Shown here piece after piece: positions 2,954 through 34,519 of a stretch of DNA of 64,000 nucleotides (its first letter is position 1; each line of letters starts with the position of its first letter). Below the pieces are notes generated by a model. That model was not told where the DNA came from. It saw nothing but the letters and a program-made list of their open reading frames with translations, and ran no database searches. The DNA comes from Dawidia soli (GTDB taxonomy: Bacteria; Bacteroidota; Bacteroidia; Cytophagales; Cyclobacteriaceae): assembly GCF_018598185.1 (NCBI RefSeq), contig NZ_JAHESC010000033.1, positions 24,878-88,877 on the forward strand. Direction: 5' to 3'. The position numbers and the translations under genes are program-made.

Positions 2954-4309
2954 ATGAAGAGGATCGTTGCAATATGTTGGTTAAGCTGCCTGGTTATAGC
3001 AGCCCGGGCTCAGGAAGCGTCCACGCCAGTGCCTACCACGTTGTCATATAAGGAGGCGGTGCAGATTGCTATCAAGAATAACTATCTCCTGAACCAGGAA
3101 AAGAATAATCTTGAGTTGAGTCAATCTGTCAGAGCCAACAATGTTGCCCGACTGGCACCCTCGGTGAGCAGTACTTTTACGGCCCTGCGCATAGACGGTA
3201 ATTCGTTCAACCAAAACGAAGGTAAAGTTGAAAACGGCGTACGCGATAACGTTTATGGAAGTGTTGATGCCAACCTGATGCTCTTCAATGGGTTTAACCG
3301 GATCAACACGATCCGACAGTCTAACGATCTGCTCCGTGCGCAGACGAGTGTTGTCAAACGCACCGAGCAACAGGTAATCAGCGATGTATCGTCACAATAT
3401 CTGCAAGTATTGCTCGATCAGGAGTTGCTGAAGATTGCCGAGCGTAACATCGAATTACTCAAGGCCCAGTTGGAACAGATCAAAGGACAGGTAGAGCTTG
3501 GTGCCAAGGCCGAGGTGGATGGCATCACTCAAGACGCGTTGGTAAAGGGTGCGGAGCTTATGTTCCTACGTGCCCGCGTGACGCTGCGTAACGACAAGGC
3601 CTTGCTTTCGCAGACCATGCTGGTAGACGCTGCGGCGGATTATTCGCTCGAAGATCCTCAGTGGGACGCAAACTTTGCTGCGTCGCTGGACCAAAACCTG
3701 GACCAATTGGTGGCTACCGCCCTGGCAAATCGGGCAGACTATCAGGGCGCACTGTATACGGAAAACGCTGCCCTTCATTTTGTACATGCCACCCGCGCAA
3801 CGTATTATCCCAATCTCGTGGCTTTCGGCTCCTATGGGTCGGCCTATAACAAATTGCAAGGATCGGCTGCACGCGGTTTTCGGGATCAGTTCTTTACCGA
3901 TAACACCCAGCTACAATATGGTCTGCAGTTGAACATTCCCATCTTCAATAATTTAAGCAACAGGTTGAATGTGGTTCGGACGAAGGTGGCCTATAACAAC
4001 GCCAAGCTGGTGCGAAGCAACGTCGAAAATACTGTCAAAAATGATGTTCTGAAAGCTTACCTGAATTTCCAGGATGCCATTGCCGCCTACCAGGCTGCCG
4101 AAGTGCAACTGCATGCAGCCGAGCTGTCGTATAATCTGGAGAAAGAGCGGTACGATCTGGGCATTACCGATCTGGTTCAGTACACGCAGGCTAACCAGAA
4201 TTATGTTAAAGCACAGGGCGACTTTGCGCAATCCAAATTCACGATCACATTTCAAAAGATCCTGTTGGACTTTGCTGTTGGCACGCTCAAATTCGAGGAT
4301 ATCCCCTGA
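2954..4309 (+). CDS. TolC-like outer-membrane efflux protein
   Basis: The 451-residue protein has a signal peptide (about 1-19, ending ARA before QE) and two outer-membrane efflux repeats of long alpha-hairpins alternating with short beta segments (for example LSYKEAVQIAIKNN near the start and a second copy from about residue 240). Proteins of this family are trimeric channels of tripartite pumps or type I secretion. It follows the ABC ATPase gene by 21 bp and is probably co-transcribed with it. A terminator hairpin follows at 4335. Confidence 0.9.
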   Translation: MKRIVAICWLSCLVIAARAQEASTPVPTTLSYKEAVQIAIKNNYLLNQEKNNLELSQSVRANNVARLAPSVSSTFTALRIDGNSFNQNEGKVENGVRDNVYGSVDANLMLFNGFNRINTIRQSNDLLRAQTSVVKRTEQQVISDVSSQYLQVLLDQELLKIAERNIELLKAQLEQIKGQVELGAKAEVDGITQDALVKGAELMFLRARVTLRNDKALLSQTMLVDAAADYSLEDPQWDANFAASLDQNLDQLVATALANRADYQGALYTENAALHFVHATRATYYPNLVAFGSYGSAYNKLQGSAARGFRDQFFTDNTQLQYGLQLNIPIFNNLSNRLNVVRTKVAYNNAKLVRSNVENTVKNDVLKAYLNFQDAIAAYQAAEVQLHAAELSYNLEKERYDLGITDLVQYTQANQNYVKAQGDFAQSKFTITFQKILLDFAVGTLKFEDIP

Positions 4310-25272: not shown

Positions 25273-25300
25273 GAAAGGGTGGATGTTTTCATCCACCCCT
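25273..25300. terminator. Bidirectional terminator between GH gene and RNA array
   Basis: GGGTGGATG (25277-25285), loop TTTT and CATCCACCC (25290-25298) form a perfect 9-bp stem. Read on the minus strand it is followed by TTTCGTTTTTATT, which makes a good end for the small-RNA array. On the plus strand it lies just after the hydrolase stop. Confidence 0.85.
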
Positions 25301-25314
25301 TCTATAATAAAATA

Positions 25315-25460
25315 AACAGGGCAAAAGGCGAAAGCGTACGTTTAGGCGCTCTATCCACTGAGCTATCTTGTGATGAATACTGTTAGGGTCACAAGAGCGG
25401 GACTCGAACCCGCGACCTCCCGGTTAACAGCCGAAGTAACGCTATTCTACGGCACCTGTT
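25315..25460 (-). ncRNA. Y RNA-like unit D with permuted tRNA-Asn-like domain
   Basis: The 146-nt unit is closed by AACAGG/CCTGTT (25455-25460 with 25315-25320). The shared element TGCCGTAG follows, then a second helix (AGCGT 25439-25443 with ACGCT 25333-25337) and the conserved TTACTTCG. Inside is a tRNA in permuted order. First comes an anticodon-like loop CTGTTAA (25424-25430), then a 5-nt variable region and T-arm GCGGG-TTCGAGT-CCCGC (25397-25413). Acceptor 3' strand TCTTGTG (25390-25396) and a 17-nt loop follow, then acceptor 5' strand CACAAGA (25366-25372) and the D-arm with GCTC/GAGC and a GG-containing loop (25348-25365). The acceptor strands pair perfectly over 7 bp. Confidence 0.75.
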
Positions 25461-25478
25461 GTTTCTTTACTATCTAAA

Positions 25479-25614
25479 AAACCGAGCAACAACCCGGCAA
25501 GCGACTTTTATTTAATGCTCTAACCTGGCTGAGCTACCGCAGTTTGCGCCGCAGGAGGGATTTGAACCCCCGTCCCTTAAGTCCCGAAGTAACGCTTGCC
25601 TACGGCATCGGTTT
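25479..25614 (-). ncRNA. Y RNA-like unit C with permuted tRNA-like domain
   Basis: The 136-nt unit is closed by AAACCGA/TCGGTTT (25608-25614 with 25479-25485). It has the shared TGCCGTAG element, a perfect 8-bp second helix (GGCAAGCG 25593-25600 with CGCTTGCC 25496-25503) and TTACTTCG. The interior again runs T-arm first (GGGGG-TTCAAAT-CCCTC, 25555-25571). A connecting segment then leads to a canonical D-arm region (GCGGTAGCTCAG..., 25516-25540). The two acceptor strands are both CTGCGG (25549-25554 and 25537-25542), which pair with each other using two G-U pairs. TTAA segments either side could form the anticodon-stem base. Confidence 0.72.
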
Positions 25615-25626
25615 AAGTTTTTTAAA

Positions 25627-25699
25627 ACAGAGGGCAACAGATCAACAGGGCTTATGTTCAATTAAAAGTCGAAGTAACCCTGCAGTACGGCACCTCTGT
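25627..25699 (-). ncRNA. Y RNA-like unit B, minimal (no tRNA-like domain)
   Basis: This 73-nt unit keeps the frame of the others but lacks the T-arm and D-arm. The terminal helix is ACAGAGG/CCTCTGT (25693-25699 with 25627-25633). The shared element reads TGCCGTAC, the second helix is CAGGG (25678-25682)/CCCTG (25646-25650), and TTACTTCG is present. The 3' side ends in CTGTTGC before the closing strand, like units C and D. Confidence 0.65.
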
Positions 25700-25709
25700 A
25701 TAGTTTAGG

Positions 25710-25851
25710 AATAAGGAGTAAAAGACGAAACGAGTTGAGTTTGGGCGTCGCATGCCGGGAGTCGAACCCGGAACACTTCCTCTGATCTGGTCAGAGCGTG
25801 TGATTCCTCCCTGTTTTGAGCGAAGTAACTCACTTCTACGACATCCTTATT
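25710..25851 (-). ncRNA. Y RNA-like unit A, adjacent to the Ro gene
   Basis: The 142-nt unit is closed by a perfect 8-bp helix AATAAGGA/TCCTTATT (25844-25851 with 25710-25717). The shared element is TGTCGTAG, and on the 3' side TTAC replaces TTGC, a compensating change. The second helix is GAGTT (25827-25831) with AACTC (25732-25736 or 25737-25741). The interior has a long hairpin around CTCTGA-CCAGA-TCAGAG and a canonical T-arm CCGGG-TTCGACT-CCCGG (25755-25771), but no D-arm. It is only a partial tRNA mimic. Confidence 0.7.
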
Positions 25852-25861
25852 TTCTTTTTAG

Positions 25862-25895
25862 AACCCTCTCCCTCCCTCACGGGAGGGAGAGGGTT
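25862..25895 (-). other. Perfect 15-bp hairpin between TROVE gene and RNA array
   Basis: AACCCTCTCCCTCCC (25862-25876) and GGGAGGGAGAGGGTT (25881-25895) pair without a mismatch around the 4-nt loop TCAC. It starts 9 bp beyond the TROVE stop codon. On the minus strand no T-run follows, so it looks more like an mRNA-end or processing hairpin than a terminator. On the plus strand GTTTT follows. Confidence 0.7.
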
Positions 25896-25903
25896 GTTTT
25901 ATA

Positions 25904-27421
25904 CTACAATGTTATGTTCTCGATCTCAGACAATGCCTGACGACCTTCGTCCAGTGCGTTCAACACGTCGAAGACCTTATCAGACCAGCCTGCGATCAGG
26001 TATACATCGTTACCACGTACATCTACCGGCGCCTGGCCGTGTCCGGCCAGGTCGAACAAGTACAGCTTTGCTTTTGGCGCCAGCTTCTTGTACAGTGCCC
26101 ACTGCGCCGACAGTGTTGCCGTGGCCCGCGTGGAATCGCTGGTCCACAGCTGACAATCCGTAAACAACATGATCTTATCGACGATCTGACGGCGGGCGAG
26201 CAGATCCTGTACGACCTTGTAGCCGTTGGTAGAATATCCTACCTCACCTTCGCGGCGGTAGAACTCCTGCACGTTACCCAGGATGTTCTTACGCGACACG
26301 CTCACGATCTTCCAGGTATCGCCAAACATACCGGTCTGTACCTGCGCGCAACGCGACTGCAGCAGCATTCCCAGCATCAACCCGATATCGTACAGCAATA
26401 CTTTGCTTTTTGCCGATACAGGCTTCTGCATCGACCCGGACACGTCGCAGGCGATGCACACCGAGGTATCGCGACCAAAGCCGCGGATGTTTGCCGCGCT
26501 ATGCGCCACAGCATCTTCCAATGCGCCCAACACCATCGGTGCCAGGCCGGACTTCAGCTCTTTCACCTCGCGGTATGCCGCCAGGAAACGGAACGGCAAC
26601 TGGCGTGACGTGGCTACGGCCTCACGGTCGGACAGGTATGCACACGCGCGTTCCATCGCCTGCGATGATACACCGTACTCCAGCATATTCCGCAGGTTTC
26701 GGAGCGTGGCCATATAGCCCAGCTTGCCGCTCAGGATCAGTTCCTCCCACTGTGCGCGGAAGGCAAGGATCTTCTGTCCTTCGCTATGGAATTTTTTCTG
26801 ACCCAGGCCCGACAGTGCAGTCTCCCAGGTATAAGGTATCTCCAGCGTGCCGTGCACGATCTTGTTAAACACGGCTTGTTGCTGCTCGCTCGCCGCTTTC
26901 GGGTGGACCAGGAACAAGGCGTCTTTCAGCTTGATCTCACCGGCGCGGTCGTATTTCGCGAACTGGTATTCATCAAAGGTGTTGAACGCTGCCGACAAGC
27001 CCCGCTGTATCTGCTTGGAAAGCTTGTTCAGCTTCTTGGCACCGGTACGCGCGTTGGCCAACTGGTAGTAAGCCAGCAGCTCGGTGATTTCGTCCGCGCG
27101 CTGTACTACCTGGTTCACCGTCTTCCCGATCAGGTTGTTTCCCGATTGGAGCTTTGCCAGCTCGACGGCCAGCATCAGGGGTACGCTACGCAAATGCATA
27201 CGCTGTCGTGCATAGACCGCCAGCCGGGCCACAAAATCAGGCTCGTTCAGCTCGATCAGCATACGGATCCGCTCCATGCGCTCGCCTGCCTTTTCGTAGA
27301 ACTTGTCGCTTAGCGATGTCGTTACCACGGCGCTATACAGCTCCAGGCGCTCATCCAGCCGATGCGCGGTAGCGCCTGCGTGGTTTGTCAGCGTGTTGGT
27401 TGTCCGTACATTGAATTTCAT
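25904..27421 (-). CDS. Ro60-family TROVE/vWA RNA-binding protein (bacterial Rsr)
   Basis: Ro60/Rsr is a ring-shaped HEAT-repeat protein that binds Y RNAs and misfolded or decaying RNAs, often with PNPase. The product (505 residues from ATG 27421; an upstream ATG at 27448 adds nine) has the helical TROVE ring (about 10-320). The C-terminal von Willebrand A domain has MIDAS motif DVSGS (326-330), a threonine in STNG and the third motif FTDCQ. It lies 128 bp after a sigma-factor gene on the same strand and directly before four Y RNA-like units. The start at 27421 gives the usual MKFNVRTTN beginning of the family. No RtcB/RtcA genes are nearby. Confidence 0.95.
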   Translation of the reverse strand: MKFNVRTTNTLTNHAGATAHRLDERLELYSAVVTTSLSDKFYEKAGERMERIRMLIELNEPDFVARLAVYARQRMHLRSVPLMLAVELAKLQSGNNLIGKTVNQVVQRADEITELLAYYQLANARTGAKKLNKLSKQIQRGLSAAFNTFDEYQFAKYDRAGEIKLKDALFLVHPKAASEQQQAVFNKIVHGTLEIPYTWETALSGLGQKKFHSEGQKILAFRAQWEELILSGKLGYMATLRNLRNMLEYGVSSQAMERACAYLSDREAVATSRQLPFRFLAAYREVKELKSGLAPMVLGALEDAVAHSAANIRGFGRDTSVCIACDVSGSMQKPVSAKSKVLLYDIGLMLGMLLQSRCAQVQTGMFGDTWKIVSVSRKNILGNVQEFYRREGEVGYSTNGYKVVQDLLARRQIVDKIMLFTDCQLWTSDSTRATATLSAQWALYKKLAPKAKLYLFDLAGHGQAPVDVRGNDVYLIAGWSDKVFDVLNALDEGRQALSEIENITL

Positions 27422-27507
27422 AACCTTTATATTTAATTGACGATACAAAGGTTAGGCCTTACTACGCAGCCTTTTTGCGCAGCACGTATGTTCTGTTATT
27501 TTTTTTA

Positions 27508-27548: not shown

Positions 27549-28136
27549 TTACCAGGGCCTCAACATCTTAATAAGGAAGGCCAGCAACATTACCCGGTCG
27601 AGCGAGAGCCTTAAATGCTTCAGAGCCGCCGAGATATAATTCTCCACCGTACGCGGTGAGATCTTCATGTGCTCGGCAATACGTTGCGTGGGCTCGTGCT
27701 GCATGCGGCTGAGCCGGAAGGCGGTTTGATAGTGCTCGGGTAATCCGGAGAGGCTTTCTTCGATGGTCTTATAGAGGTCCTTCAGGTGCAGGAGCTCTTC
27801 ACTGGAATTGTCCACACGCTCGGCGGTATAGAGTACAAAATCGGCGGCGTAGCGCTCGCGTACCGAGCGGGATTTGATGAATGTCAGGATCTTGTTTTTT
27901 GCGGCGCCGAAAAGCCAGGCTTCGACCGAGGTGTTGATCACGAGTGTATCGCGTTTGGCCCAGAGCGCCAGGAAGATCTCCTGTACGATCTCTTCGCAGA
28001 CTTCCTTCTTCTTGACTTTGCTATAGACATACCGATACAGGGCCGGCTCGAAGCGGTCGTAGAGTGCCTCAAAGGCTTTTGCCTGTTCAGCAGCAGGCAA
28101 CGCGAAGAAGTCCGAATGGTTGAATCCAGACGCCAT
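27549..28136 (-). CDS. ECF sigma factor (FecI-like)
   Basis: The 195-residue protein has sigma region 2 (about 22-90, with YRYVYSKVKKKEVCEEIVQEIFLALW) and region 4 (about 125-180, with GLPEHYQTAFRLSRMQ and RIAEHMKISPRTVENYISAAL). This is the layout of Bacteroidota FecI-type ECF sigma factors, which direct RNA polymerase to SusC/SusD genes once released by a FecR anti-sigma factor. The FecR gene lies 196 bp away on the opposite strand. Confidence 0.93.
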   Translation of the reverse strand: MASGFNHSDFFALPAAEQAKAFEALYDRFEPALYRYVYSKVKKKEVCEEIVQEIFLALWAKRDTLVINTSVEAWLFGAAKNKILTFIKSRSVRERYAADFVLYTAERVDNSSEELLHLKDLYKTIEESLSGLPEHYQTAFRLSRMQHEPTQRIAEHMKISPRTVENYISAALKHLRLSLDRVMLLAFLIKMLRPW

Positions 28137-28154
28137 AGAGTGGACCAGGGTATT

Positions 28155-28215
28155 GATTGAAGAAAGTTAGAATATTTTTATTTCAATCGAAAGCATGATC
28201 CGGATTTGATTGAAA
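28155..28215. repeat. GATTGAA repeats in the sigma/FecR divergent region
   Basis: GATTGAA occurs at 28155-28161 and 28208-28214, and as the inverted TTTCAATC at 28181-28188. The 28181 and 28208 copies form an 8-bp inverted repeat. They lie between the divergent sigma and anti-sigma genes and could be regulator or sigma recognition sites. Confidence 0.4.
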
Positions 28216-28332
28216 ACCAATGGTTTGGACATGATATAAAAGAATTTTACAGAAAACGTGTGCGTAAGGAGCGGCTCGGGCTACATCCTGTTATGGGGCC
28301 GCAGAAGTGGCCTGTTATCATCGACTATCTAT

Positions 28333-29289
28333 ATGAAGAAATCAGAATTTGAGCAGCTTATCGAGAAGTATCAGCAGGGGCTGTTGTCCGGAAAAGAAAA
28401 GGAGCTCATGGACGCATGGTTTGACGCCATCGGCCGTGACGAGGCACACCCCTTGCGGACGACGGCGGAGCGCGATGTTTTGAGGCGGCGGGTGATGGCG
28501 GGCGTGCACGGACATAAAACATGGGCCCCGGTGTATGCCTGGAGGATCGCAGCCTCTTTATTGTTGATAGCCGTGGCGTCGTTTGCGATCTGGCAGTATA
28601 TCGCACACGATGCCTATCTGCCGGTGGCGCAGCAACTGACGGCTTCGTCCGCCGAGGGATTTGTCCATAAGGTCCTCCTGGATGACGGAAGCCTGGTATG
28701 GCTGAAGAACAACAGCTCGCTGACCTATCCGGAGAAATTCACGGGGAAAGACCGGCGGGTTGTGCTTCGCGGCGAAGCGCTGTTTGAAGTAGCCAAAGAC
28801 GCCAGCCATCCCTTTATTATCCAATGCGGCGAGCTGACGACGACCGTGCTGGGTACCAGTTTTAATATCAAGTCCAGCGAAAAAGACATTGAAGTGGTCG
28901 TGCTGACGGGCAAGGTCTCGCTGACGGCGCAAAACGACGCGTCGGGCATTGTCGTCCTGCCGTCTGAGAAAGCGATATACCGCAAGGAGATGAAGCAGCT
29001 GGCCAAGGTCGAGGCGCAGCCAGAGGAGTCGGTGTCCAGCATTTCGGGCACGGAATACAACATGAATTTCGAGCAAACGCGGATGCAGGAAGCTATCCGG
29101 CGGATCGAGCTCAAATTCAATGTGACCATATCCCTGACCGACCCGAGCATGGGGAACTGTATCATTACGGCCAACCTGACGGACCAATCGCTCAGGAAGA
29201 CCCTAGACGTCATAACCCTGACGTTGCGCGCGCACTACGAAGTGAATGGAAAGACCGTCACCCTGACCGGCACGGGGTGCAGTGAATAA
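28333..29289 (+). CDS. FecR-family anti-sigma factor
   Basis: The 318-residue protein has a short cytoplasmic N-terminal sigma-binding part, one membrane helix (about 70-87, IAASLLLIAVASFAIWQYIA), and a periplasmic FecR domain (about 105-205, with DDGSLVWLKNNSSLTYP and GEALFEVAKDASHPF). A C-terminal DUF4974/STN-like domain (about 245-318) follows. In this family the periplasmic part senses the STN domain of a partner SusC and releases the sigma factor. The start at 28333 (MKKSEFEQ) fits the family better than an upstream ATG at 28258. Confidence 0.93.
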   Translation: MKKSEFEQLIEKYQQGLLSGKEKELMDAWFDAIGRDEAHPLRTTAERDVLRRRVMAGVHGHKTWAPVYAWRIAASLLLIAVASFAIWQYIAHDAYLPVAQQLTASSAEGFVHKVLLDDGSLVWLKNNSSLTYPEKFTGKDRRVVLRGEALFEVAKDASHPFIIQCGELTTTVLGTSFNIKSSEKDIEVVVLTGKVSLTAQNDASGIVVLPSEKAIYRKEMKQLAKVEAQPEESVSSISGTEYNMNFEQTRMQEAIRRIELKFNVTISLTDPSMGNCIITANLTDQSLRKTLDVITLTLRAHYEVNGKTVTLTGTGCSE

Positions 29290-29316
29290 CGTATCCGCTA
29301 CCTAAACAAATAACAT

Positions 29317-29352
29317 ATGAACAAACCCGCCAATAGTACCAATACAAGCTAG
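29317..29352 (+). CDS. Possible 11-residue leader peptide upstream of susC
   Basis: ATG at 29317 opens a frame of 11 codons (MNKPANSTNTS) ending at TAG. It lies 27 bp after fecR and 122 bp before susC. A hairpin follows (GGCAGA 29385-29390 with TCTGCC 29406-29411, inner GTG-TTCG-CAC). The arrangement resembles an attenuator leader, but the frame is short and could be chance. Confidence 0.25.
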   Translation: MNKPANSTNTS

Positions 29353-29474
29353 AAAAAAGCCAATACCGCTACAGCCTAAAAAAAGGCAGAAGTGTTCGCA
29401 CCACCTCTGCCCCCCGTCAAAAACGGTAGGCTAATGTTTCACCTCGAGAGTTTCACACTAAACCTTTAACAAAA

Positions 29475-32400
29475 ATGCAAAAATTTACGATCAGTTGGAT
29501 CGGTAAGCTTATGCGTATTACCCTAATACAGGCAACTCTTGCCATGACCCTTTTCGGTATCGCGATCGCCGGCGACAACTACGGCCAGCTTCTCGAACTG
29601 CAGGTGACGGTAAAATACCGTAACGAATCCATCCGGAATGTACTTTCAGGCATTGAGCGCAAGAGCTCGGTCAAATTTGCGTACAGCGGCAGCATGCCCG
29701 CCCTGGAAGAAAAAGTGACCATTGCGGTAAATAGCACCCGGCTAAAAGATGTGCTGGAGACCCTGCTAAAGCCCCGCGGTATAGCATACATCGAAGAGAG
29801 CGACTTTATCATCCTTTCCGACCGGCCCCTGGACCAGAAGGCAAAAAATCCCGATAACTATCAATCCATGCTTACGCCGGTCGACCGGACCGTGTCTGGT
29901 ATTGTGTCGGACGGAGAGAACGCCGGCCCGTTACCGGGCGTAAACGTCGTGATCAAAGGAACGAGCATCGGTACCACTACCGACGCCGACGGCCGGTACT
30001 CTCTGAACGTGCCCGACGAGGGGGGTGTGCTGGTATTTTCGTTTATCGGCTATGCGACGCAGGAAGTGATTATCAACGGCCGGACGACCATCGATGTGGC
30101 GATGGCGGCCGATATTACATCCCTGGACGAAGTCGTCGTCGTGGGGTATGGCACGCAGCAGCGAAAGAACGTGACGACAGCCATTACGCAGGTTTCGTCG
30201 GAAGACCTTTTGCAGGTAGCCGGCAACGGAGCGTTGATGGCCATACAGGGCAAAGTGGCGGGGTTGTCGATCGTCAACACCGCGGCGGCCGACCCCAATT
30301 CCACCCCGGACTTTCAGTTGCGGGGTGTATCCTCCCGCAACGCGGGCCTGGGGCCGCTGTTCGTGATCAACGGTATACCGGGCGGCAACATCGACAACCT
30401 CAACCAGAACGACATCGAGTCGGTGACCGTGTTGAAAGGGGGCGCTGCCGCGGCCATTTATGGTACCCGGGGCAGCAACGGTGTCATTCTTGTGACGACC
30501 AAGAAAGGAACCACCACTCCCCAGGCTTTTTATGATGGCTATGTCAGCTTCAATTATTTAGCCAATACGTTGGACGTCCTTTCGCGGGACGAATTTGTGG
30601 CGAATGGCCGGGGCGTCGATTACCACGGCAATACCGACTGGTTAAAATCCATCACCCACGAACCGGCCGTATCGCAGAAACATACGCTGCAGCTCTCCGG
30701 TGGAAGCGATCTGACCAATTATATGATCTCCTTCGACTACCGCGATGCCGATGGAATCGACCTGCGATCGAACAAAGAGGAGTACGGTGCGCGGCTAAAC
30801 CTGAATCACCACTCGGCCAATAATCTGTACGTTGCCACCATTACGATTGCGCCGCGCTATTTAAGATCCAATAATATCAGCAAGAACGGTTTTAGCCAGG
30901 CGTTGTTCCTAAACCCGACGATACCCGTTCAGGATACCCTGAACAGTGCGCGGTATTTTAATATCCGCACCGGGTTTGATGGTGCCTTTAACCCCGTAGA
31001 GGAACTAAAGACAGTCGAGAGCGGCACGGAAGGGAAATACCTCGACTGGAGCGCTTCGTTCAGACTGAACCTGCTGAAGAACCTGTACACGCAGGTCAGC
31101 CTCAGCGAGCAGACGACCGACTTCTTTGACTTTGGATTCACGCCTTCGTATAACACTACCCGGATCAATAACGACGGCGGGAGGAATACAGCCAGCCGGG
31201 CGTATAAGAAGCGCGATCAAAAGATCTTTGAGTGGATCGGCAATTACAATCTCTCCTTCGACAAACACAACGTAGAGGTCATGGGCGGCTATTCGTTCAA
31301 CTATTTCGTCAATGAAGGGATGAACGCCTCCAATGAGCAATTTCCCTCGGATGTGCTCACGTATAATAACCTGGGGACCGGAACCTGGATCCTGGAGAGC
31401 CCCCAAAACCGGTTGGGTTCGTATAAATCGGATGCCAAGCTGATAGCCTTTTTCGGCCGCGTGAACTATGACTTTGCCGACCGGTATTATGTCTCCGCCA
31501 GCTTGCGTCGTGAAGGATCATCCAAGTTTGGTATCGGCAACAAGTGGGGCAATTTTCCCGGTGTTTCCGTGGGATGGCGGATCACTAACGAAGCCTTTTT
31601 CCCGGCGGTGGATGCCATCGACGATCTTAAATTCCGGGCAGACTTCGGGGTGACCGGAAATCAGGATTTTAACCGTGGAGGCGAGGACCTGGGCAGTTAC
31701 ATGTCCATGGACACCTATTCGGGCTATGGGTTCTATGCCTATCAGGGTGTATACTACCAGGTGTGGGGCCCCAGCCAAAATACCAACTACAACCTGCGGT
31801 GGGAAAAGTCCGAGAATATAAACATCGGTGTCGATTTCGAGCTCTTCGACCGGAGACTGACCGGCAGCGTGAACTATTATACCCGGAAGAATAAAGATCT
31901 CCTGGGTAACTACAATGTTCCTGTCCCGCCCAATGTGCAAGGCGCTACCTATGTAAACGTCGGTACGATGAAGAACTCCGGTTTGGAGATCCAGCTGGAG
32001 GGCGAGCCCTATCGTTCGGATAAATTTACCTATGGGGTGACATTTGCCGGCGCCACCAACAGCAATGAGTTTGTGTCGTTTTCAAACGAGCTGTACCATG
32101 GTCAGAACTTTTCAGACATCGCAGGCCTGGGTGGCATGGGCAGCTCCGGACTGAATGCGCAGCGCCTGGAAGAAGGCAAACGCATTGGCAGCTTCTACAT
32201 GCTGAAATCCGCCGGGGTGGATGCCACCGGCCGGTTATTGGTTTACGACAAGGCCGGAGAGGTCATTCCGGGGAACCGGGCGAAAGCCGAAGACCGCCAG
32301 TATGTGGGGAACGGGCTTCCGAAGTTCACCGCCAGCCTGGGCAACAACTTCAGCTACGGCAACTTCAGCCTGAGTATCTTTTTACGTGGTGCCTTTGGAT

Positions 32401-32789
32401 ATGATCTGTACAATACCACCGCGTATTTCCTCGGTACACCCGCGACCCAGAAAGGTGTCAACGTGCTGGCATCGGCGTATGACGGTGGAAAGTATTCGGC
32501 CCTCACCAATCCCGAGACGTACTCATCGCTTTCCGATTACTTTCTCGAAAAGGGTGACTTTGTGAAGATCGATAACGTGACGCTGGGCTATACGTTCAAG
32601 AACCCCATCGAGTTCCTGTCGTCGGTAAGACTCTATTTTACTGCGCGGAATTTGTACACGTTCACTAAGTTCACCGGTGGTGATCCCGAATCGGTGAGTG
32701 TGAACGGCTTGACGCCGGGTATCAATACCTCGCTGCCGTACTATCCTTCTTCTACCCAGCTCATCGCTGGCTTACAACTCAAGTTTTAA
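29475..32789 (+). CDS. SusC-like TonB-dependent transporter with N-terminal STN signalling domain
   Basis: The 1104-residue protein has a signal peptide (about 1-32) and then an STN domain (about 40-115, with RNVLSGIERKSSVKFAYSG and LEETLLKPRG-like text). Next come a carboxypeptidase-regulatory-like domain (about 140-215, GVNVVIKGTSIGTTTDADG), the plug starting EVVVVGYGTQQRK, and the barrel to the C-terminus (LIAGLQLKF). STN-bearing SusC proteins pass ligand status to a FecR protein across the periplasm. This fits the sigma/FecR genes just upstream. SusD follows by 17 bp. Confidence 0.96.
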   Translation: MQKFTISWIGKLMRITLIQATLAMTLFGIAIAGDNYGQLLELQVTVKYRNESIRNVLSGIERKSSVKFAYSGSMPALEEKVTIAVNSTRLKDVLETLLKPRGIAYIEESDFIILSDRPLDQKAKNPDNYQSMLTPVDRTVSGIVSDGENAGPLPGVNVVIKGTSIGTTTDADGRYSLNVPDEGGVLVFSFIGYATQEVIINGRTTIDVAMAADITSLDEVVVVGYGTQQRKNVTTAITQVSSEDLLQVAGNGALMAIQGKVAGLSIVNTAAADPNSTPDFQLRGVSSRNAGLGPLFVINGIPGGNIDNLNQNDIESVTVLKGGAAAAIYGTRGSNGVILVTTKKGTTTPQAFYDGYVSFNYLANTLDVLSRDEFVANGRGVDYHGNTDWLKSITHEPAVSQKHTLQLSGGSDLTNYMISFDYRDADGIDLRSNKEEYGARLNLNHHSANNLYVATITIAPRYLRSNNISKNGFSQALFLNPTIPVQDTLNSARYFNIRTGFDGAFNPVEELKTVESGTEGKYLDWSASFRLNLLKNLYTQVSLSEQTTDFFDFGFTPSYNTTRINNDGGRNTASRAYKKRDQKIFEWIGNYNLSFDKHNVEVMGGYSFNYFVNEGMNASNEQFPSDVLTYNNLGTGTWILESPQNRLGSYKSDAKLIAFFGRVNYDFADRYYVSASLRREGSSKFGIGNKWGNFPGVSVGWRITNEAFFPAVDAIDDLKFRADFGVTGNQDFNRGGEDLGSYMSMDTYSGYGFYAYQGVYYQVWGPSQNTNYNLRWEKSENINIGVDFELFDRRLTGSVNYYTRKNKDLLGNYNVPVPPNVQGATYVNVGTMKNSGLEIQLEGEPYRSDKFTYGVTFAGATNSNEFVSFSNELYHGQNFSDIAGLGGMGSSGLNAQRLEEGKRIGSFYMLKSAGVDATGRLLVYDKAGEVIPGNRAKAEDRQYVGNGLPKFTASLGNNFSYGNFSLSIFLRGAFGYDLYNTTAYFLGTPATQKGVNVLASAYDGGKYSALTNPETYSSLSDYFLEKGDFVKIDNVTLGYTFKNPIEFLSSVRLYFTARNLYTFTKFTGGDPESVSVNGLTPGINTSLPYYPSSTQLIAGLQLKF

Positions 32790-32806
32790 TGTCAATATAC
32801 TAGCGT

Positions 32807-34519
32807 ATGAAAACTATAACTCAACATATAGCCGGTATTGCATGCAGTGTGCTGCTGGTGTTTTTTGCGAATGGCTGTACAGACCTGGACGAAACGCTGT
32901 ACGACCGGATTACCTCAGAAAATTTTTTACAAACCAAGGACGACGTAATCCGCGACTTCTTACGATCCTTTGAACACGGCTACTGGTCGATCCAGGGCGG
33001 TGGCTTATACTATGCCCAGGAATTGCCCTCGGACGAGCTGATGACGCCAAACCGCGACGGCGACTGGTTTGACGGCGGCGTGTACGCCCGTTTGCACTAT
33101 CATACCTGGACCGAGCAGGATGGCTATACCAGCGACATGTGGAATGCCTTGTACCAGGGCATAAGCCTGGCGACAAACTCGTTGGAGGACATCGAGAAAA
33201 TCGATCCCGTTCAGTTCGGGTTGACCGAGGCCGACAAGGCAGACTTTGTGGCGGAATTGAGAACCCTGCGGGCGTGGTATCACCTGCGGGCATTTGACCT
33301 GTACCGGAACATTCCCCTGGTCACGAAAGTGAAGGGCGAAAGCCAGATGCCCCCGCAGTCGACCCCGCAGGAAGTATTTGATTTTATTGAGCGGGAGTTG
33401 ACCGAGTCTCTTCCGAATCTCCCAACCCGCGAGCAGCTCGGCGACGACGCGATCGGGCGTTGGACAAAGGGCGGTGCCGCCGCCCTGTTGGTCCGGCTGT
33501 ACCTGAATGCAAAAGTGTACGTCGACCAGGACAAGTTTGCCGAGTGTGCGTCGATCTGTGAGAAGTTTATCAACGGTGAGTATGGCAGTTATCAGCTCGA
33601 AACCCGTTGGGATGCTCCGTTCGATTATACCAATTCAACTTCCGCTGAAATGGTCTTTGGTTTCCCGTCCAGCTTTGCCCGTACACACTGGCAGTACGAT
33701 GGCGGCATGTTCGGTTGGATGGCGCCGCACCAGGCCGGCAAATATTTTGGCCTGTCGGGATTTGGCTTTAACACCCGCTATGCCTTGCAACCCGGACGCG
33801 ACGTCGACAGCGTGGAGTATCCCTTTGCGTTGGGCAAGCCCTTTGTCAAGTTTCAAAAGTATCCCGACGACTTCCGGTTAAAGAAATACCGCAACCTTGG
33901 CAATAGTACCCGCGAAGGAATGTTTTTATATGGGTATCTGCCGTATGTCGAAAACGGAGAAACCAAATACGTCCAGAGCAACCGCGGCTATACCATTTTC
34001 AGCCGCGACCAGGTAGGCTTTTTCAAAAATACACCCCCCGGGCAGGAGTTGGCGGATAAAGTTTCGAACATGGACCACGCGGATGACAACTCCGGCGTGT
34101 GGCTGGTCAAATATCCATTCTATCCGACGGAGGATCCGAACAAACTGGCGTCGGCCTATGCCGAGATCCGGTATGCAGAGATCTATTACTCCCTGGCGGA
34201 ATGCAAGTATCGGGCGGGCGATAAGGCGGCAGCCTCCGTGCTGCTGAACGAAGTGCGGAAACGCAATTATCCCGAGGGCTCTACCAGCCTCTATGAACCC
34301 GACGGCAGCGAGCTGACAGACATCGAGCTGATCGACGAATGGGGCCGGGAATTCATCGGCGAAGCCAGACGGCGTACAGACCTGATCCGCTGGGATCTGT
34401 TCAACAAAGGCACCTGGTGGGATAAACAACCCGATGCGGACGATCATACCAAACTATATCCTATTGGTAAGAACGTGACCAACCTCGTACCCGATCTTAC
34501 ACCCAACCCTGGTTATTGA
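32807..34519 (+). CDS. SusD/RagB-family lipoprotein (FecIR-linked locus)
   Basis: The 570-residue lipoprotein (VFFANGCTDLDET, Cys near residue 24) shows the SusD scaffold: ELRTLRAWYHLRAFDLY, then AEIRYAEIYYSLAECKYRAGD and LIDEWGREFIGEARRRTDLIRW. It pairs with the STN-SusC upstream. The final text KLYPIGKNVTNLVPDLTPNPGY is the usual SusD C-terminus (P-I-x-x-x-x-x-x-x-x-L-x-x-N-P-G-Y). Confidence 0.95.
   Translation: MKTITQHIAGIACSVLLVFFANGCTDLDETLYDRITSENFLQTKDDVIRDFLRSFEHGYWSIQGGGLYYAQELPSDELMTPNRDGDWFDGGVYARLHYHTWTEQDGYTSDMWNALYQGISLATNSLEDIEKIDPVQFGLTEADKADFVAELRTLRAWYHLRAFDLYRNIPLVTKVKGESQMPPQSTPQEVFDFIERELTESLPNLPTREQLGDDAIGRWTKGGAAALLVRLYLNAKVYVDQDKFAECASICEKFINGEYGSYQLETRWDAPFDYTNSTSAEMVFGFPSSFARTHWQYDGGMFGWMAPHQAGKYFGLSGFGFNTRYALQPGRDVDSVEYPFALGKPFVKFQKYPDDFRLKKYRNLGNSTREGMFLYGYLPYVENGETKYVQSNRGYTIFSRDQVGFFKNTPPGQELADKVSNMDHADDNSGVWLVKYPFYPTEDPNKLASAYAEIRYAEIYYSLAECKYRAGDKAAASVLLNEVRKRNYPEGSTSLYEPDGSELTDIELIDEWGREFIGEARRRTDLIRWDLFNKGTWWDKQPDADDHTKLYPIGKNVTNLVPDLTPNPGY

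Follow-up and report, generated by a model that had tools for sequence, protein, structure and literature searches.

A Ro60-linked array of Y RNA-like units with tRNA-like heads in Dawidia soli, behind an inverted repeat also found before RNA-repair genes

We analysed a stretch of 64,000 nucleotides (nt) of Dawidia soli DNA (contig NZ_JAHESC010000033.1, positions 24,878 to 88,877; the whole stretch is called the window below), in which a gene for a Ro60-type protein is followed, on the minus strand, by four tandem RNA units. To judge from their sequences, these units are very probably Y RNA-like partners of the Ro60 protein. They combine a common covarying core, varied tRNA-like heads and an upstream repeat that also precedes RNA-repair genes, and from these three features together we predict that they are Ro60-bound Y RNA baits. 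The best explanation, to which we give a probability of roughly 0.6, is that the array makes Y RNAs to whose core Ro60 binds and whose heads act as baits for enzymes, and that these RNAs would be made upon RNA damage under the repeat of the repair genes.

For comparison, 148 genomes of the family were scanned; 12 of them, that of D. soli included, carry a Ro60 gene, and the DNA 3′ of the gene was read in all 12. With 80 further named loci, nearly all labelled Bacteroidota, and 54 viral loci, the collection came to 146 loci and 1.92 Mb. Locus L001 is the window itself, L081 is the contig of L005, L074 that of L006, and L094/L095 and L109/L110 look alike, so that the counts contain duplicates and related loci. 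One named locus with an unreadable gene end (L021) was left out of the 3′ motif matrix and of the counts of neighbouring genes, tRNA genes and operator positions (n = 79).

Read directly from the window, the order on the minus strand is an inverted repeat, an ACCTTTG box, the Ro60-type gene, a GC-rich hairpin, the four units and a terminator-like hairpin (Table 1). Consecutive units are separated by spacers of 10, 12 and 18 nt, and each unit is closed by a terminal helix of its own (AATAAGGA, ACAGAGG, AAACCGA and AACAGG) that pairs exactly with the 3′ end of that unit. Behind the terminal helix the core continues with one bulged U, a GY facing an RC, CGUA, a second helix specific to the unit and UUACUUCG. 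The closing stem formed by the 5′ and 3′ ends, broken by conserved unpaired CGUA and UUGUU strands and covarying, has the general form of a Y RNA, and the units are encoded beside a Ro60/TROVE gene as bacterial Y RNAs are. An earlier note on this DNA had claimed four tandem units of 146, 136, 73 and 142 nt behind a TROVE/vWA gene, with unit-specific terminal and second helices on common motifs; we found the units at 25315-25851 of the minus strand and the helices as described, and the helices covary.

The 5′ motif of the units (TGYCGT, 9-13 nt, TACTTCG), searched by sequence only with at most one mismatch, occurs at 536 sites on the Ro60 strand of the 146 loci and at 6 on the opposite strand; the 536 do not include a further 133 sites that have two mismatches. 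Where the 3′ motif is present as well (438 sites), 6.76 of the 8 positions at the ends are paired, compared with 4.54 (standard deviation, s.d., 0.05) when partners were swapped, and helix 2 gives a pairing score of 6.56 against 4.23 in the same control. Since the matrix of the 3′ motif was learned from the units of a helix-led finder, the argument rests on the swapped-partner controls. That finder was itself rejected as too loose, and sequence motifs took its place.

A covariance model, R1, was made from 16 permuted units of 14 loci, hand-picked from 92 motif-defined candidates; the Ro60 proteins of the source loci are 61-65% identical to the query, and some of the loci are unplaced or doubtfully labelled metagenome records. 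When the expected structure of 33 base pairs was imposed on this alignment, both-sided changes were seen at 22 of the 33 pairs (mean of 17.2 with shuffled partners and at most 12 with slid partners), in 117 cells (39.5 and at most 27), and 92.1% of the cells were paired (70.5% and at most 50%). None of 500 shuffles reached the observed values. The weakest helix was the D stem, which was 77% paired, with five rows off by one column. The helices are thus kept by compensating changes among homologous loci, a point on which the earlier note had made its reading depend.

In the window, R1 at E-values up to 1 matched only the four units. Among the 148 genomes, searched with stricter filters under which unit 2 of the window is not listed, all 18 listed matches of at least 50 bits fell in 11 of the 12 Ro60-carrying genomes, and the twelfth (G074) had a match of 47.0 bits. 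At least two exact 5′ motifs within about 1 kb were found in 9 of the 12 genomes with Ro60 and in none of the 136 without it, and no unit array was found by motif and model in those 136; single exact motifs occur in both groups. At least one unit is present in 12/12 family loci, 79/80 named loci and 20/54 viral loci. The named loci most often have 5 units and have at most 11, 78 of the 80 having at least three; in the only one without a unit (L062) the sequence stops about 200 bases 3′ of the Ro60 gene. The new covariance model and genome search that the earlier note had proposed therefore bore out its idea of an expanded Ro60-linked family, as did the covariation, the recovery of units from distant loci and the absence of arrays from the 136 genomes lacking Ro60. 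In two Ro60-carrying genomes a single unit was also observed away from the Ro60 contig (G142, contig 10, 12534-12661, 73.4 bits; G002, contig 203, 1893-1964, 49.8 bits). Ro60 relatives are present in 93 phage records, and viral (IMG/VR) loci such as L103 have up to 8 units with Ro60, some of them with anticodon arms; none of the 41 viral loci tested had the inverted repeat.

One might suppose that the units are the debris of a tandem tRNA array and merely resemble Y RNAs. R1 does give matches of up to 48.1 bits in genomes lacking Ro60; those listed mostly cover a part of the model only (such as 31-114), several lie at even spacing, and by their sequence they may be tandem tRNA genes, because the run of T arm, acceptor 3′ strand, spacer, acceptor 5′ strand and D arm between tandem tRNA copies imitates a permuted head. 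Such a junction of duplicated tRNA genes would be a plausible origin of the permuted heads. As an account of the units themselves, however, debris is hardly credible, given that matches of at least 50 bits are confined to Ro60-carrying genomes, that the core helices covary, and that the window shares three units in order with Parachryseolinea silvisoli (L013), whose Ro60 is 90% identical. That species lacks unit 1 and has units 2, 3 and 4 in unchanged order. Between the two species, unit 3 differs by one acceptor pair changed from G-C to U-G and by three more one-sided changes, the helix being kept, and the change in unit 4 is nearly confined to the acceptor loop: its 15 nt are replaced, and outside it two positions differ, neither of them in the acceptor strands.

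The protein partner is a divergent Ro60 by its sequence, not an Rsr equivalog: it has a TROVE domain (Pfam, 105.5 bits against a cut-off of 23), its vWA_Ro60 score of 26.7 bits is marginally below the cut-off of 27.7, and it scored 28.4 bits where the NCBIfam Rsr equivalog cut-off is 900. DVSGS and TD are unchanged in 10 relatives, as in TROVE proteins with a vWA metal site, and a profile of the ten relatives matched the solved TROVE/Ro60/Rsr chains 9l5y, 1yvp and 2nvo, best of all the TROVE chain 9l5y (positions 11-498, 2.9e-36).

The heads of the four units do differ, and, as the earlier note suggested, there may be one unit per function. By sequence, unit 4 is a complete tRNA(Asn)-like cloverleaf that is opened between the D and anticodon arms and whose acceptor is closed by the 15-nt loop; unit 3 has a T arm, an acceptor and a D arm, and unit 2 a Lys-type anticodon arm only. 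The T-arm-like block of unit 1 is almost identical to that in the Deinococcus Y RNA model RF01053. The earlier note had seen permuted tRNA domains in two of the units, which holds for units 3 and 4; its account has to be widened, as tRNA-like parts are present in all four heads. The permuted T arm, closed acceptor stem and D arm follow the layout of YrlA. In 142 units from 84 loci, chosen by sequence for a T-loop anchor followed by a D-arm anchor, the 7-nt acceptor strands (78 different ones) pair at 6.42 of 7 positions, compared with 3.97 (s.d. 0.10) when swapped, the T stem pairs at 4.92 of 5 compared with 4.05, and the acceptor ends are joined by a loop with a median of 8 nt.

When heads of 60-150 nt were circularised, ARAGORN called a tRNA across the closing junction in 154/303, whereas controls with D halves swapped between loci gave 35/281, 41/283 and 45/281; uncircularised, as they are in the RNA, the heads gave 2/303. 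For the circularised head of unit 4 the call was tRNA-Asn(gtt) with 14 of the trimmings and tRNA-Val(tac) with 10. As isotypes shift with trimming and are often undefined, we relied on exact anticodon loops instead, taking as reference 57 seven-nt loops from the D. soli genome and one Chryseobacterium genome. The hairpin after the core has an exact loop in 40/536 units, compared with 2.6 (s.d. 1.6, maximum 6) in 20 shuffles: Lys(UUU) 13 times, Asn(GUU) 8 times and thirteen others one to three times each. About 2.6 of the 40 are thus expected by chance, loops that occur once may be chance, and related loci are not independent counts. In many of the loop-bearing units the 5′ strand of the anticodon stem is the UUCG of the core.

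These four-arm permuted heads with normal anticodon loops raise the possibility that the permuted units are tRNA genes, released, circularised and opened into working tRNAs as in algae. We hold this to be highly improbable. Unit 3 and many other permuted heads have no anticodon arm, the acceptor ends are joined by a loop and no CCA is present in units 3 and 4, the Y-type core is placed between the D arm and the anticodon arm, and ordinary tRNA genes, those for Asn(GUU) and Lys(UUU) among them, are present in the D. soli genome. Canonical tRNA genes do lie 3′ of Ro60 in 7/79 loci, which is not a general feature since upstream controls gave 5/73. No linear tRNA match to RF00005 above the cut-off was found within 25315-25851, and the linear ARAGORN call of tRNA-Asn at 25387-25461 was read as a false call of unit 4.

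Several observations concern tRNA genes and unusual heads in the relatives. A unit in L006 (3566-3688) has a linear, unpermuted tRNA head (3595-3665, 45.4 bits to the Rfam tRNA model) in the usual core. tRNA genes lie among the units or directly 3′ of them in L084 (8920-9660, alternating with gaps of a few nt), L074, L085, L068, L024 and L077, and in the Chryseobacterium mucoviscidosis genome (G149, the genome of L071) 21 tRNA genes lie on contig 10 (92555-110953), about 12-30 kb before Ro60. A long RNA-like stretch with tRNA-like ends and a large insert was seen in L009 (about 3650-3880) and in L006 (from about 4480), where no Rfam family explained it at the thresholds used. Four Chryseobacterium loci (L047, L060, L071 and L072) have a recurrent head class, GTGCAATTTCCTGAA...GATCAGGTGCATGTCTG, that by eye is neither tRNA- nor rRNA-like, and L071 also has a Flavo-1 match under the cut-off, 3′ of Ro60 on the opposite strand.

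Another class of head resembles ribosomal RNA (rRNA). Its twelve units come from as many loci, of which ten are Chryseobacterium, and have CCUAAGGUAGC or one change from it, and 11 of the 12 contain a block of 19-33 nt that matches 23S rRNA with 91-100% identity; in the twelfth (L091) 11 nt are kept, which is at chance level. The block corresponds to about 1905-1937 of an E. coli copy, which we take to be helices H69-H71. When one such unit was matched to E. coli genomes, the median number of places was 7 per genome; those listed, five in all, were annotated 23S rRNA.

The inverted repeat TRCGCA-N7-TGCGYA, allowing one mismatch, lies upstream of Ro60 in 74/80 named and 11/12 family loci (85/92 cellular loci), and in none of the loci in two control zones of equal width. 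In the window it is followed by the ACCTTTG box, which we take to be likely the −7 promoter element of the Bacteroidota consensus; the box would then act as a promoter. The exact repeat is found at 7 places in the D. soli genome as against 4 for a reversed control, and five of the seven score at least 28 bits, each of them no more than about 110 nt from the gene that it faces. They stand before Ro60 (31.0 bits), RtcB (30.8 bits), Hen1-Pnkp (29.9 bits), a RlaP pair (28.2 bits) that lies beside an RNA ligase gene and an HD-kinase gene, and a 693-aa gene without a Pfam or PADLOC match (30.7 bits). The RtcB site has a divergent WYL-WCX-PhyH gene (L236, 1674-3413) on its other side. A sixth site (C48, 26.5 bits), with a different spacer, precedes an ApeA-type HEPN gene (ApeA_NTD1, 8.4e-29), and the seventh (C41, 10.5 bits) was taken as chance. 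The ApeA-type defence gene (L230, 1581-2990; contig 48 of the D. soli genome) lies beside an HNH endonuclease gene.

Six other genomes have 27 places of the repeat, and the genes were read at 16. At 7 of the 8 places in Chryseolinea serpens these were RlaP, the start of a WYL gene, Ro60, a Thg1-type operon, two small genes without a Pfam match and, 0.9 kb downstream of the repeat, a Band_7-RtcB pair. The operon behind the repeat in this species (L258, 52-1812) has Thg1-type, AAA_33 and 2OG oxygenase genes. At 4 of the 10 places in Chitinophaga filiformis the genes were Ro60, RtcB, a WYL gene and an unknown 528-aa gene. Two of the three places in Flavobacterium zhairuonense are Ro60 and the array itself, and Spirosoma arboris and Chryseobacterium mucoviscidosis have one place each, at Ro60. 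Genes without a Pfam match lie directly behind the repeat at L237 1365-3446, L260 1513-3099, L258 2363-2950, L257 2256-2738 and L256 2506-2781; going by the repeat, such genes may be additional members of the regulon. By clustering, with one member of each kind confirmed by Pfam, 34/79 loci encode a WYL-type protein and 25/79 encode RtcB no further than 6 kb from Ro60. From the sequences, it is likely that the Ro60 array belongs to an RNA-repair regulon.

Of the sites of at least 26 bits in the 79 named loci, 63 stand at the promoter of Ro60 and 29 lie past its stop codon but ahead of the first unit. Another 29 follow further downstream on this strand, which has 11 more at other places, and 5 are on the divergent side; loose matching (up to one mismatch, spacer of 5-9) gave 163 further matches elsewhere in the loci. 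With an additional copy before the first unit in 29/79 loci, an array can have a promoter of its own. The earlier note's proposal of a single operon thus fits the window, which has the operator and promoter-like box before Ro60 and the terminator-like hairpin after unit 4, and need not hold for those 29 loci.

Table 1. Features of the Ro60 locus, all positions being those of the window
Feature	Position	Strand	Evidence or remark
Putative operator, inverted repeat TGCGCA-AAAAGGC-TGCGTA	27461..27483 (19-nt core 27463-27481)	-	0 mismatches to TRCGCA-N7-TGCGYA; 31.0 bits
ACCTTTG box	27446..27452	-	by reading; TTTG kept ~30 nt 3′ of operator start across 85 loci
Ro60-type gene, TROVE + vWA, 505 aa	25904..27421	-	Pfam TROVE 5e-30; structure-profile matches
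Strong GC-rich hairpin between Ro60 gene and unit 1	25863..25894	-	by reading; by eye, L003 and L013 have similar hairpins here
Unit 1, 142 nt, Deinococcus-Y-RNA-like head with T-arm-like hairpin	25710..25851	-	R1 43.0 bits, E 1.2e-10
Unit 2, 73 nt, small, anticodon-arm head	25627..25699	-	R1 53.5 bits, E 9.8e-14
Unit 2, anticodon-arm-like hairpin UUCGA-CUUUUAA-UUGAA	25657..25673	-	loop is an exact match to the tRNA-Lys(UUU) loop
Unit 3, 136 nt, permuted tRNA head without anticodon arm	25479..25614	-	R1 90.5 bits, E 1.2e-24
Unit 3 head: permuted T arm 25555-25571, acceptor hairpin 25537-25554, D arm 25517-25536	25517..25571	-	by reading
Unit 4, 146 nt, permuted tRNA head with all four arms	25315..25460	-	R1 118.1 bits, E 8.5e-33
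Unit 4, tRNA(Asn)-like head: anticodon arm 25419-25435 (loop CUGUUAA), T arm 25397-25413	25348..25435	-	
Unit 4 head, rest: acceptor closed by 15-nt loop, D arm	acceptor 25389-25396/25366-25373; D arm 25348-25365	-	
Terminator-like hairpin GGGTGGATG-AAAA-CATCCACCC, T-rich tail	about 25273..25300	-	by reading

Upstream of the locus lies an ordinary uptake cluster (27549-34519) with an ECF sigma gene (Pfam) and FecR-, SusC- and SusD-like genes (by eye); the ECF sigma gene (27549-28136) was set aside.

These observations can be arranged into a working model. The array stands beside Ro60, with covarying units whose heads are permuted tRNAs, anticodon arms on their own, folds resembling a T arm and, among relatives, also a piece of 23S rRNA, and the same repeat lies before Ro60, RtcB, Hen1-Pnkp and RlaP. 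The WYL-PhyH protein encoded at the RtcB site may read the repeat, in which case RNA damage would switch all these genes jointly. By analogy with known Y RNAs, Ro60 would grip the conserved core, and the heads would serve enzymes that handle tRNA and rRNA as decoys or minimal substrates, the candidates being modifying enzymes, PNPase (an exonuclease) and anticodon nucleases; multiple heads at a locus could widen the range of partners. The proposal of baits is made because the Y RNA of D. radiodurans tethers Rsr to PNPase (PMC7790460) and YrlA is a substrate of DusA and TruB (PMC8394870). Taken alone, this bait role, drawn by analogy, stands a little short of even odds.

The heads might act more narrowly, as ribotoxin decoys: in competition with tRNA and rRNA they would occupy anticodon nucleases and rRNA-cutting toxins, while the co-regulated ligases mend what is cut. 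Genuine anticodon loops, with tRNA-Lys(UUU) the commonest (13/40), would suit this, as would the repeat common to RtcB, Hen1-Pnkp and RlaP, the weaker site before the ApeA-type HEPN gene (HEPN proteins are ribonucleases), and the units in viral loci, some with anticodon arms. A competitive-inhibitor role has also been proposed for the YrlA head (PMC7790460). The same paper describes YrlA fragments as undetected when a Salmonella nuclease cut tRNAs; most heads here are without an exact anticodon loop, and the loops of related loci are not independent. We regard decoys as rather unlikely to be the main role. Also doubtful is a wider version, an inducible decoy library behind Ro60 in Bacteroidota that would display isoacceptor surfaces or 23S H69-H71, share one operator with the repair enzymes and have drawn its heads from tandem tRNA-gene junctions. 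If it were true, the cell would both intercept ribotoxin attack and repair the damage with ligases, a kinase and a methyltransferase.

A number of results weigh against the reality of the units or against our preferred explanation, that of Ro60-bound baits made under the repair-gene repeat. Single-sequence folding was not significant for the four units (z of -1.67, -1.93, -0.09 and -1.25). In the window the helix-led finder gave 9 extra matches on the units' own strand and another 9 on the plus strand; two of these matches scored within the range of the units, and only motif and model tell them apart. R1 at E-values up to 0.01 matched 133/148 genomes, including the matches of up to 48.1 bits in those lacking Ro60, and the Rfam Y RNA families were matched only far under their gathering scores. 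Exact anticodon loops in only 40/536 units mean that a general role based on the anticodon is not possible, and the likeness to 23S rRNA ends after 19-33 nt, the rest of the head scoring 19.8 bits against 19.9 when shuffled. As for the repeat, its matrix was trained on 66 distinct sites that are Ro60 promoters themselves, none of the 41 viral loci searched for it has it, and in the window Ro60 has neither an RtcB nor a WYL gene beside it. The sites in Chitinophaga filiformis score only 24.0-26.8 bits, the third place in Flavobacterium zhairuonense is within a gene (25.1 bits), the four places in Hymenobacter have no A-rich spacer, and several strong sites precede genes without a Pfam match.

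The repeat ties the units to RtcB, Hen1-Pnkp and RlaP and makes the purpose of the heads directly testable: it predicts when the RNAs are produced, and the anticodon loops predict candidate enzymes. Several hundred units on one core form a natural series from lone anticodon arms to complete permuted tRNAs, together with the 23S piece, and this series bears on why bacterial Y RNA heads mimic tRNA. Arrays occur in genera with cultured strains (Chryseobacterium, Flavobacterium, Chitinophaga and Chryseolinea).

Among known systems, a close one in layout is the Salmonella-type YrlA, which likewise adjoins a Ro60 (Rsr) gene and has paired ends and a permuted T arm, closed acceptor stem and D arm. 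Nothing at the locus reached an Rfam gathering score. The search with the Rfam Y RNA and YrlA models that the earlier note had suggested did give matches, all of them below those scores: YrlA (RF02553) matched unit 4 with 33.8 bits and unit 3 with 27.2 (best relative 43; gathering score 69), and RF01053 aligned over its full length with unit 1 (27.5 bits, E-value 0.038; 34.2 bits in L014; gathering score 80). We therefore rejected both family labels. The loci differ from YrlA in scoring 19-43 bits against 69, in having mostly 3-11 units, some with a complete anticodon arm, and in their putative regulator. Unit 1 shares its near-identical T-arm-like block with the Y RNA of Deinococcus radiodurans, but its score and that in L014 are far from 80 bits and other unit classes stand alongside it.

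In the Salmonella rsr-yrlBA-rtcBA operon, controlled by RtcR, Ro60, Y RNAs and RtcB belong to one RNA-damage response (PMC7790460). Here, by contrast, dispersed genes have a common inverted repeat, Hen1-Pnkp and RlaP are added, and the candidate regulator is the WYL-WCX-PhyH protein. Pnkp-Hen1 is a bacterial RNA-repair system (PMC4411300); Hen1 and Pnkp are encoded here under the common repeat, and a link of theirs to Ro60 arrays was not met in the literature covered. That literature, consisting of titles and the starts of abstracts, with most subscription papers outside it, contained no diversified arrays, no anticodon-bearing or 23S-like Y RNAs and no such repeat. The function of bacterial Y RNAs has been studied in D. 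radiodurans only, according to PMC7790460.

In the permuted tRNA genes of algae the 3′ half precedes the 5′ half, and the transcripts are processed into working tRNAs. The permuted heads have the same order of halves but differ in the closed acceptor loop, the inserted Y-type core and the lack of a visible CCA in units 3 and 4. Chen et al. are said to have described, in 2014, Y RNAs that resemble tRNA and lie next to Ro60 genes in many bacteria. A permuted tRNA head is in itself nothing other than the layout of YrlA in Rfam; what goes beyond YrlA in these arrays is the complete anticodon arms, the heads made of an anticodon arm only, the 23S-like head and the link to RNA-repair genes.

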